Shown here: positions 19,807 to 28,913 of the stretch, piece by piece
Layout: the number at the start of each line of letters is the position of its first letter
How positions within the stretch are numbered: position 1 is the stretch's first letter
Origin: a virus
Length of the DNA: 47,499 bases
Virus record (IMG/VR): IMGVR_UViG_3300025764_000001
Coordinates: 1-47,499 of that record
Direction: 5' to 3' (one strand)
Program-made: the position numbers and the translations under genes
Notes under the pieces: model-generated
What the model saw: only the letters and a program-made list of their open reading frames with translations
Told to the model about the DNA's origin: nothing
Databases searched by the model: none

Positions 19807-20058
19807 TTACAAAATTAATTCATTGTCATTGATTTGCAAAGCTTTATTCTGTTGTATTTTAACTATTTCTAACTGAATTTTAACAGTTTCATTTAACTCA
19901 AATTCAATACTTCTCTTAATTTTCTTTAACAAAAATATTTCCTTATCAATTTTATATTCATTTTCCGGTTGCATTAACTTTTTATGTGCTAAATGGCAAA
20001 TGTCGTTTTCAATATCGTTTAGGTTATGTTTTAATATGGTTTCGGTTTCTGGGGTCAT
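19807..20058 (-). CDS. Hypothetical coiled-coil-like protein, 83 residues
   Basis: A helical, charged protein (MTPETETILKHNLNDIENDI; then FLLKKIKRSIEFELNETVKI). I recognise no family. It overlaps the methyltransferase stop by 4 bp. Confidence 0.65.
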   Translation of the reverse strand: MTPETETILKHNLNDIENDICHLAHKKLMQPENEYKIDKEIFLLKKIKRSIEFELNETVKIQLEIVKIQQNKALQINDNELIL

Positions 20059-21005
20059 AATTTTTCGTATTCGTTAATTGTTTTAAAAATCTGGAATGCA
20101 ACTTGCGGAACTATTGCGTTTCCGTATCCTTTGATTGATTCATTTCTGTGTTTTGGAAAGGTAATTCCAACCAGTCCGGCGGATAACCCATCATTTCTGC
20201 CACGAACCGGGGATTGAGTTGGGAAGTTGTCCCAGGTTTCGCGCCCATAATTCCGTGCATTGCATGTGCCAGTGTGTCGTTCTGTCTCTTCGGGTTCGGT
20301 CTCGTACATCCCCCTTTTACGTCCGATACCGCTGTCGGCGTTGGAAGTAGTTTCCTTATTTCTCTGTTTAAATCGAATTGGCTTTTGTAAGACGTCTCCC
20401 CTTTCCAGTCCCGGGAGTTCGGAGTTGGAAGTAATCCGTGTTGGGCCATATCCGAAAGATGTACCTGTTTTCTCTCCTCTAATGGCTGTTTTCTCCCGTC
20501 CCTCTCTCCGTTTGCACTTGGCGTAGGCAATAAACCAAACCCTGTCTCTTCTATGGGGAGCGTTAACAGTACAAGCTGGAAGTATGACCGTCTGTACTTC
20601 GTACTCTTCATTTTCCAAGTCAGTCTGCACCTCATTGAATACCAACCCTCCATTCCAACTAACAATTCCAGAAACGTTTTCGCCCACAACGTAGCGTGGG
20701 TTAATCTCCCGAATCGCTCTAAGCATTTCCGGCCAGAGGTGTCGGTCATCTTCTTTTCCAAGTCGTTTTCCTGCGACTGAGTATGGTTGGCAGGGAAATC
20801 CGCCCGTGAGAACATCAATTCTGTTTGCATATTTTGTAAAATCAGTAGTTTTTATATCTTCAAATAATTCTGCATTGGGCCAATAATATTTTAATACCTT
20901 TTGTCCGAATGGGTTTATCTCACAATGAAACAAGTTTTCCCATCCAGCCCAATTAGCAGCTAAATCAAATCCACCTATTCCAGAAAATAAAGATCCGTGT
21001 GTCAT
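20055..21005 (-). CDS. C5-cytosine DNA methyltransferase
   Basis: A 316-residue protein with the classical motifs: I GSLFSGIGGFDLAA (4-17), IV GGFPCQPYS (68-76) with catalytic Cys72, VI VVGENV (106-111), VIII HRRDRVWFIA (151-160), and X GYGNAIVPQVAFQIF near the C-terminus. The region between VIII and X, where target recognition should sit, is hydrophilic and low in hydrophobic core. That same DNA carries a second long frame (20111-20830). It would protect phage DNA from restriction. The local base composition is richer in GC than its neighbours. Confidence 0.92.
   Translation of the reverse strand: MTHGSLFSGIGGFDLAANWAGWENLFHCEINPFGQKVLKYYWPNAELFEDIKTTDFTKYANRIDVLTGGFPCQPYSVAGKRLGKEDDRHLWPEMLRAIREINPRYVVGENVSGIVSWNGGLVFNEVQTDLENEEYEVQTVILPACTVNAPHRRDRVWFIAYAKCKRREGREKTAIRGEKTGTSFGYGPTRITSNSELPGLERGDVLQKPIRFKQRNKETTSNADSGIGRKRGMYETEPEETERHTGTCNARNYGRETWDNFPTQSPVRGRNDGLSAGLVGITFPKHRNESIKGYGNAIVPQVAFQIFKTINEYEKL
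20111..20830 (-). CDS. Overlapping frame inside the cytosine methyltransferase gene
   Basis: A 239-codon frame on the same strand, shifted by one base, wholly inside the C5-methyltransferase gene. It begins MQTELMFSRADFPANHTQ. It reads like a structured protein: MTDTSGRKCLERF, LTWKMKSTKYRRSYFQLVL, three LLPTP boxes (100-104, 133-137, 161-165) each starting a similar segment, and LNPRFVAEMMGYPPDWLEL at the C-terminus. I recall the same motifs from phage proteins annotated as methyltransferase-related. The shared DNA would then code for two proteins, or the second frame may be read by frameshifting. Confidence 0.65.
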   Translation of the reverse strand: MQTELMFSRADFPANHTQSQENDLEKKMTDTSGRKCLERFGRLTHATLWAKTFLELLVGMEGWYSMRCRLTWKMKSTKYRRSYFQLVLLTLPIEETGFGLLPTPSANGERDGRKQPLEERKQVHLSDMAQHGLLPTPNSRDWKGETSYKSQFDLNREIRKLLPTPTAVSDVKGGCTRPNPKRQNDTLAHAMHGIMGAKPGTTSQLNPRFVAEMMGYPPDWLELPFQNTEMNQSKDTETQ

Positions 21006-27241: not shown

Positions 27242-27937
27242 TTAAAAGGGGTTAAGATTAAAATCAATTTCAATTCCTTTATCTGCAATGGTTACCGTTT
27301 TCCCGGTTGCTAATTCTGTTCTTTTCTGAAAGTCTTTAGCGTTTGAAGACCCATTGCTCAAATGAGTAAGTACGATATTTTGAACTTTTGATAAATCGTT
27401 TTCTGATAAGAATTGCAGCGTTTTTTGAATTGACAAATGACTGGCTTCTACTCTGTTTTGGCCCCGGGCGTTTAGCTTGTCTTGCATCATTAATTCGTAA
27501 ACAATGTCCTCGTCATAGTTGGCCTCTATGATTACCTGGTTTAAATTTGCAAACTTGTAAGGGATTTCGCCGGTATCGGTTATGAATAGAATGTTTCCGG
27601 TTTCGGGATGATAGATATGAAAACCGTAAATCGGTACGTCGTGAATAAGGTCAAATGGAGTAACGATAAATTTCCCTACGTTTTTATTTGGTATTGCATG
27701 TTTTGGAAAATTGGGGAACATAACAGGAATTCCGGCCTTTACATATTCGCTCATGTACTTAGAATGATCTAAATGCGAATGACTGACCAGGCAACCAACA
27801 ATATTATCAATACTGTGATTCAGCGCTATTTTAACTTCTTTGAATGAAACGCCCGCTTCAATTACGAGCGTCTCATTTTTCGATATAAGTAAATAGCAAT
27901 TCCCCGAGCTACTGGAGCCCAAACATTTTAAAAACAT
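27242..27937 (-). CDS. Metallo-beta-lactamase-fold hydrolase
   Basis: A 231-residue protein starting MFLKCLGSSSSGNCYLL. SHSHLDHS near residue 60 is the HxHxDH metal site; later metal ligands appear in FITDTGE and VLTHLSNG. The start at 27937 is chosen because the upstream 8 codons overlap the HNH gene. In phages, such proteins lie beside RecT-type annealing proteins and are thought to be nucleases that make the single strand. The SSSSGNCY opening resembles YycJ/WalJ-type exonucleases. It overlaps the HNH gene by 10 bp. Confidence 0.85.
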   Translation of the reverse strand: MFLKCLGSSSSGNCYLLISKNETLVIEAGVSFKEVKIALNHSIDNIVGCLVSHSHLDHSKYMSEYVKAGIPVMFPNFPKHAIPNKNVGKFIVTPFDLIHDVPIYGFHIYHPETGNILFITDTGEIPYKFANLNQVIIEANYDEDIVYELMMQDKLNARGQNRVEASHLSIQKTLQFLSENDLSKVQNIVLTHLSNGSSNAKDFQKRTELATGKTVTIADKGIEIDFNLNPF

Positions 27938-28857
27938 ATTTTTTCCTCCTTGTATTTCCAAATATATCCACCAGACGTTTTCCTTGTTTTCCCTGGTTTA
28001 AATTCCTTTTTATTGGCTACAGATATGATATTACCCTTTGATATGCCCGTAATTCTTTGCGCGTCAACCGGACTTTTGTATTCTGATATGAATTTACCGT
28101 TTAAATCGTATTGAATTATTATTTTTTCGTGGACCGTTGTCCTTCCTATTTCTGCTATTGTTTCCCTGTTAATACATCCACAACTTTTTGTTAGTCCAGA
28201 TGTCATATTTGCACCTCTTATCTGTTTTGTTTTTCCACAATTACAAACACAATTCCATACGGCTCCGTGATCTCCAATTTTAGATAAACTAAGAACCGTT
28301 AACCTTCCATAGATATTCCCTATTAAATCGTTCATGCTTGGAACCAATGGATGTGTCATTGCTTTTTCGATAGGCCACCCAGAATTAATTCTACCCTGAA
28401 GTGTTTTTATTTCCAATCCTGATATTTTGGCCCACTCTGTTAGGGTTTTAGTTTTTCCGTTATATTCAATATTTCTATTTGTGCGTTTGTTTGATTGTTG
28501 TTCTTTATTGGTTATCCACCTACAATTACCGGGTTCGTAGTTACTATCGTTGTTTATTCTATCTATGGTCAAATTGTCATTATATCCATTATTTATTGAC
28601 CATGTATAAAACGACATAAAATCATTTTTCCATTCTTCGCACATTTTAATTCCCCTATTTCCGTAATTTTTGGAAACAGACAAATTGCCTACACGCGTTC
28701 TTTGCTTTATATTACACCACGTATTGTAAATTCGTGTTTTGATTAATCCGTGTCTTTTTGATGCCATAAACAAAACGACCTCCGAACACAAAGGCAACCC
28801 AGTTGAACCATTATGGTTCTTTGGCAATGTGTCCGAAAGTCGATTTAATGTTTTCAT
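27928..28857 (-). CDS. HNH homing endonuclease between RecT and nuclease genes
   Basis: A 309-residue protein. The HNH part (SINNGYNDNLTIDRINNDSN, then YEPGNCRWITNKEQQSNKR) is of the type found in mobile phage endonucleases. A middle helical DNA-binding region (LTEWAKISGLEIKTLQGRI), a zinc ribbon (CVCNCGKTKQIRGA, KSCGC) and a C-terminal NUMOD1-like helix-turn-helix (AQRITGISKGNI) follow. The first about 30 residues (MKTLNRLSDTLPKNHNGSTG) look unrelated and may be a fused remnant. It probably inserted between recT and the nuclease gene. Confidence 0.82.
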   Translation of the reverse strand: MKTLNRLSDTLPKNHNGSTGLPLCSEVVLFMASKRHGLIKTRIYNTWCNIKQRTRVGNLSVSKNYGNRGIKMCEEWKNDFMSFYTWSINNGYNDNLTIDRINNDSNYEPGNCRWITNKEQQSNKRTNRNIEYNGKTKTLTEWAKISGLEIKTLQGRINSGWPIEKAMTHPLVPSMNDLIGNIYGRLTVLSLSKIGDHGAVWNCVCNCGKTKQIRGANMTSGLTKSCGCINRETIAEIGRTTVHEKIIIQYDLNGKFISEYKSPVDAQRITGISKGNIISVANKKEFKPGKTRKTSGGYIWKYKEEKICF

Positions 28858-28876
28858 TATAAACTGAGTTGCGAAG

Positions 28877-28884
28877 TAAAGATA
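28877..28884 (-). promoter_or_regulatory. Promoter-like TATCTTTA element
   Basis: TATCTTTA, one base off TAnnTTTG, lies about 20 bp upstream of the HNH start at 28857 and just downstream of recT. It may give the HNH/nuclease pair its own transcript; no clear -33 element is seen. Confidence 0.3.
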
Positions 28885-28913
28885 CAAAATAAATTACAAA
28901 GAATGATTATAAA

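Follow-up and report, generated by a model that had tools for sequence, protein, structure and literature searches.

In the 47,499-nucleotide viral stretch analysed here (the window), the gene for a C5-cytosine DNA methyltransferase, called alpha, contains in its +1 frame the coding sequence of a second protein, called beta. The two products quite probably (a probability of roughly 0.74) form a split C5 methyltransferase, that is, a heterodimer with beta nested in alpha, in an arrangement like that of M.EcoHK31I. Contractile-tail genes (tail sheath, baseplate hub) are present in the window, and its replication module adjoins the methyltransferase gene; elsewhere, at 27242-28887 of the minus strand, an HNH endonuclease with a NUMOD1 domain adjoins a protein of the metallo-beta-lactamase fold.

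Alpha (316 aa) occupies positions 20055..21005 of the minus strand and is matched by PF00145 (8.5e-45), TIGR00675 (1.1e-37) and phrog_363 (2.8e-72). Beta (239 aa) lies fully within it, at 20111..20830 of the same strand, and runs for 239 codons from ATG to TAA inside the 316 codons of alpha. Its coordinates and the profile matches bear out the original prediction that a long same-strand frame, one base out of register, is embedded in a C5-methyltransferase gene. The prediction also held such a length to be improbable by chance, and this proved right: when synonymous codons were shuffled 5000 times with the methyltransferase protein fixed, the longest +1 frame reached 215 codons (mean 95), compared with 246 codons from stop to stop in the window (p<=0.0002). 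The +2 frame of alpha was of ordinary length in the same test. An HMM search places beta in a family, phrog_1008 (E=2.8e-26), with beta residues 3-230 of 239 aligned to profile positions 36-287 of 329, and searches of Pfam, NCBIfam and PDB sequences with beta gave no match. Two antisense (+) frames of 88 and 75 codons inside the methyltransferase gene, at 20260-20526 and 20553-20780, are probably incidental.

It is strongly supported by comparison of related sequences that the second frame is a genuine gene and that both frames are under selection, because stops are depleted, residues are conserved in both directions and synonymous sites are frozen. Relatives were gathered with two queries, the methyltransferase and the second frame, and homology to the second frame was found in the +1 frame of all 80 loci kept from the methyltransferase query, which had been picked regardless of that frame. 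Pooling gave 107 distinct genes, in each of which the longest +1 frame spans 167-345 codons, and most of these frames exceed those of 100 shuffles. The stop, identity and start tests used 87 non-redundant viral relatives, which are related by descent and thus are non-independent trials, but which are diverse and offer a contrast internal to each gene: the +1 frame contains 1 stop over motifs IV-VIII (333.5 +- 14.7 expected) and 0 over the variable region (148.4 +- 9.0 expected). No depletion is seen upstream of the beta frame (230 stops against 156 expected), nor in the +2 frame over the catalytic half. The codon-level comparison of relatives therefore finds the second frame open, and not strewn with stops. 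Residue identity in the +1 frame is 0.54, 0.26 and 0.66 over three segments, where the null gives 0.34, 0.14 and 0.31, and in the last box the conservation of the beta frame exceeds that of the overlapping methyltransferase frame. The reverse test, with the beta protein fixed, gives 0 stops in alpha where 307, 375 and 76 are expected. Finally, among pairs at 60-75% alpha identity, the fraction of alpha 4-fold sites that differ is 0.635 and 0.597 in the flanks and falls to 0.353, 0.230 and 0.209 within the beta overlap.

A second frame that was nothing but the chance shadow of a conserved methyltransferase could share some of these properties, given that same-strand +1 frames over conserved genes may appear conserved and that the shuffle null already reaches a +1 identity of 0.34. 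The observed values nevertheless stand far above the null, the 4-fold sites are frozen only within the beta frame, and other C5 methyltransferases (DillTech15 gp66, Wphi, RB43, SPbetaL2) lack such a signal; this reading retains next to no probability and is ruled out by the synonymous-site test. In a few copies, at two loci (L081, L090) and one bacterial locus (L323, genome G006, 678-1494), a stop breaks up beta while a methyltransferase frame remains; such copies are rare.

The original prediction had credited the methyltransferase with all main motifs, which turned out to be true only in part. As a member of the C5-methyltransferase family (PF00145), alpha has in its own frame, on the minus strand, motif I (20970-20990), motif IV (GGFPCQPYS, with PCQ, 20778-20804), motif VI (ENV, 20673-20684), motif VIII (20532-20555) and motif X (GYGNAIVPQ, 20103-20129). 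Motif IX (RxLTPREcaRLqGFPD) was not found in the alpha frame on inspection between VIII and X, and a matching box sits in the +1 frame. Judged by its motifs, alpha alone is an incomplete C5 methyltransferase, because motif IX is not in its chain, and it is this absence that gives the key to the overlap. In a proteobacterial branch (Escherichia phage K1H, L001; BcepC6B, L145; SEN4, L146; RSU-F4K5, L147), the translations show YNEWD..IPFGVVDERSI ahead of alpha motif I (FFAGIGG), a stretch that to the eye resembles motifs II-III, as though circularly permuted.

The assignment of motif IX to beta runs through relatives in which everything is read in one frame. In gp66 of mycobacteriophage DillTech15 and its relatives, a single chain contains motifs I-VIII, the LLPTP boxes, PRLaaaFpEWMMGWPaGW and then GNGV. 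Its EWMMGWPAGW segment aligns column by column with motif IX (RRLTPRECFRLQGFPD), and its GNGV with motif X, of canonical phage C5 methyltransferases; one single-frame relative reads ARLNPAFPEWMMGWPTGW at motif IX. By way of these enzymes the window box LNPRFVAEMMGYPPDW (20171..20218, minus strand) is aligned with RRLTPRECFRLQGFPD, and since they put the same segment on the canonical motif, the beta box is identified, by alignment, as motif IX. The phrog_1008 profile covers the C-terminus of DillTech15 gp66 (residues 247-446, 3e-76) and also matches Keziacharles14 gp81 (1.5e-69) and the beta protein of K1H (1.4e-55), and a single-frame relative modelled with AF2 resembles M.HhaI over its full length (Foldseek E=4e-13, TM 0.55-0.61). 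When beta is compared directly with canonical methyltransferases by hhalign, the only (top) local match is the motif IX box, at an E of 0.2-0.25 that is non-significant alone. Against an alignment that includes gp66, hhalign matches the LPTP region only. A mixed beta alignment was too diverse for use in scanning.

Upstream of this box, beta consists of two further parts, both on the minus strand. The N-terminal module (SRADFPAN..TSGRKC..CRLTWK..YFQLV, 20534..20830) lies over alpha motifs IV-VIII, the stretch nearly free of +1 stops, and three LLPTP boxes (20507-20533, 20408-20434 and 20324-20350, together 20324..20533) follow where the target-recognition region lies; these three boxes and the closing LNPRFVAEMMGYPPDW had been noticed in the product beforehand and are located here. 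Conservation of the LLPTP boxes is 0.46-0.47 in beta against 0.25-0.29 in the overlapping alpha, and single-frame relatives have the same boxes between motifs VIII and IX. The motif IX box itself stands about 14 codons upstream of alpha motif X, in the other frame. The AF2 model of beta alone is poor (pLDDT 60), as would be expected of a dependent subunit, with a beta-hairpin at residues 68-90 (pLDDT 87-90 by block); a fold search with this weak model matched no solved fold. The N-terminal half is no part of the canonical enzyme and is absent from single-frame enzymes, and by its sequence constraint it must have some further role, because it is strongly constrained though unneeded for motif IX.

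The probable start of beta is the ATG at 20828..20830 (minus strand), preceded by an A/T-rich leader with no Shine-Dalgarno motif. In 87 of 87 relatives, the interval from the last upstream stop to methyltransferase codon 62 contains an ATG in frame, and 86 of them have one within +1 codons 40-61, where the null gives 55.2 +- 4.1. The presence of this initiating codon in all relatives bears on the choice, left open at the outset, between two proteins sharing the DNA and a hybrid made by shifting ribosomes. Programmed +1 frameshifting would join alpha motifs I-VIII to the LPTP-IX segment and so yield a second, hybrid enzyme, a junction compatible with a fold because mycobacteriophages have the same two parts in one frame. 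The constrained +1 frame nevertheless begins about 100 codons ahead of the first point at which a junction would be useful, and its constraint over motifs IV-VIII would be unneeded if the shift followed motif VIII; moreover, beta ends before motif X, so that two shifts would be needed to place IX and X in one chain. A frameshift gene is conserved only downstream of the shift site and has no start of its own, and beta is unlike it on both counts. Frameshifting is thus unneeded and disfavoured, and very improbable as an account of the locus, given the constraint on the N-terminal half of beta and the two shifts required for IX and X; the stops, conservation and frozen sites favour two proteins.

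In the split-enzyme reading, then, alpha (motifs I-VIII and X) would be translated from one frame and beta (N-terminal module, LPTP boxes and motif IX) separately from the internal +1 start, and the two would associate into a single heterodimeric cytosine methyltransferase to which beta would supply motif IX. The LPTP boxes may contribute part of target recognition, because they are more conserved in beta and lie between VIII and IX in single-frame enzymes. Translation from the internal ATG, the formation of the heterodimer, its activity and the recognition role of the LPTP region are inferred. The phage would use the enzyme to protect or mark its own DNA.

One observation that speaks against a split enzyme comes from methyltransferases that possess a motif IX of their own and yet enclose a related nested module. 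In Firmicutes phages, single-chain C5 methyltransferases contain another kind of nested +1 ORF, phrog_16143, which spans about 140 codons and ends in SLSDILE..YFLS; it is found among viral relatives of the Streptococcus phage IPP14 methyltransferase (L236:1652-2071, L239, L324-L403). Over aa 50-175 the +1 frame of 43 non-redundant relatives has 24 stops against about 283 expected, and the 4-fold values are 0.31-0.50 there against 0.67 outside, frozen only in that stretch. The product also matches phrog_1008, weakly (3.4e-08 to 3e-03). Matches of these ORFs to the beta profile average 14.7 bits, against 6.4 in shuffles, and in 23 of the 68 genes the real sequence scores higher than every one of 30 shuffles; common descent of the N-terminal modules of beta and phrog_16143 is suggested, because the profile match is above shuffles on average. 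Long +1 frames also occur in two canonical control methyltransferases from Streptococcus phages, both of which have an in-frame motif IX.

These complete enzymes, whose nested module lacks motif IX, lend weight to the idea that beta is an independent protein with a task of its own (e.g., a methyltransferase regulator or chaperone, or a counter-defence factor) and that its likeness to motif IX is secondary, as does an N-terminal module constrained in its own right. What this idea leaves unexplained is that the motif IX gap of alpha falls exactly where beta supplies one, and that the same LPTP-IX segment forms the C-terminus of single-frame enzymes; it is considered unlikely, and the split enzyme is preferred. 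A tentative scenario, held at somewhat under even odds, is that the nested +1 protein is an old, general companion of phage C5 methyltransferases, whose N-terminal module would have its own function and be retained even in single-chain enzymes with no need of its motif IX (phrog_16143 in Firmicutes phages); one branch would then have lengthened this protein and moved motif IX onto it, leaving an enzyme unable to work without the overlapping gene.

The family occurs in three forms. In the single-frame form (a), represented by DillTech15 gp66 and about 25 relatives, the LLPTP boxes and the EWMMG-P-GW motif IX are as in window beta, but all motifs are in one frame, the N-terminal module of beta is lacking and the +1 frame is unconstrained. 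In the split form (b), alpha ends past motif VIII, and IX and X come next in the +1 frame (Keziacharles14 gp82/gp81; also L267, L268, L272, L274-L276, L278 and L280); such intermediates count in favour of the split-enzyme reading. In the nested form (c), that of the window, alpha retains X and motif IX lies in the +1 frame over alpha; its phages are those of Paenibacillus, Bacteroides, Escherichia, Klebsiella, Burkholderia and Salmonella, with K1H and epsilon15 as equivalents that can be cultivated. Nesting in +1 is the only arrangement in 152 of 155 loci, one more (L215) has a nested pair accompanied by a broken additional copy, and the remaining two represent the mycobacteriophage forms. The extra copy at L215:4053-4493 is a second beta-like stretch with stops, downstream of the intact pair.

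No stand-alone beta was found among viral contigs, genome contigs, or phage and plasmid records. Every relative examined lies within a methyltransferase gene or, in mycobacteriophages, is the C-terminus of the methyltransferase itself, and the stand-alone phage proteins mentioned in the original prediction have no counterpart there. The nested gene is mainly one of phages and prophages, since only 3 of 297 sampled Bacteroidota genomes match, one of them the seed genome. On a Sphingomonas paeninsulae plasmid (NZ_CP032828; L153:1760-2851), a protein annotated as hypothetical appears to be the beta frame, and the methyltransferase frame, +2 of the annotated protein and open for 362 codons, lacks annotation.

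Nested proteins of the phrog_1008 type have been annotated in a few phages as "internal gene" or "Mte8-like". The same nested protein as beta is g60 of Paenibacillus phage Sitara, which bears the GenBank note "g59 internal gene", and ORF28 inside ORF29 of Escherichia phage K1H. In these GenBank records no function, motif-IX assignment or selection test was found, and the open-access literature yielded no paper on this phage nesting, its motif-IX role or its selection.

Lee, Kam and Shaw are said to have described in 1995 that the smaller polypeptide of M.EcoHK31I is encoded within the gene of the larger one, in an alternative frame; in the window, the second polypeptide is likewise nested in an alternative frame. 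M.EaeI is another two-polypeptide C5 methyltransferase. The larger subunit of M.EcoHK31I has motifs I-VIII and X, and only IX is on the smaller polypeptide (PMC3404938), which, compared by motif layout, is the same division as that between alpha and beta in the window. The two differ in that the predicted target-recognition domain of M.EcoHK31I is on the larger subunit, whereas the LPTP boxes of the window are conserved in beta. In M.AquI, motifs IX-X are on the small subunit and two polypeptides complete one motif set (PMC3404938). The split form of mycobacteriophages (Keziacharles14 gp82/gp81) resembles it in placing both IX and X on the second piece, unlike the window, where motif X is on alpha and the frames overlap across the entire beta. 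In layout, form b corresponds to the arrangement published for M.AquI, and form c to that of M.EcoHK31I.

M.EcoHK31I already provides a known example of a two-polypeptide layout in which the small subunit bears motif IX. The full overlap of two conserved proteins over 720 bases ranks as a very large case of dual coding, and one that can be tested; it is maintained in phages of Bacteroidota, Firmicutes and Proteobacteria. It accounts for a family, phrog_1008, labelled merely "DNA methyltransferase", and implies that the annotation of many phage methyltransferases covers half of the likely enzyme and, for some, gives the wrong frame. In a methyltransferase expressed from a recoded gene, beta would be lost unnoticed. 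With single-frame, split and nested forms that can be compared side by side, the origin of a long overlap becomes open to study.
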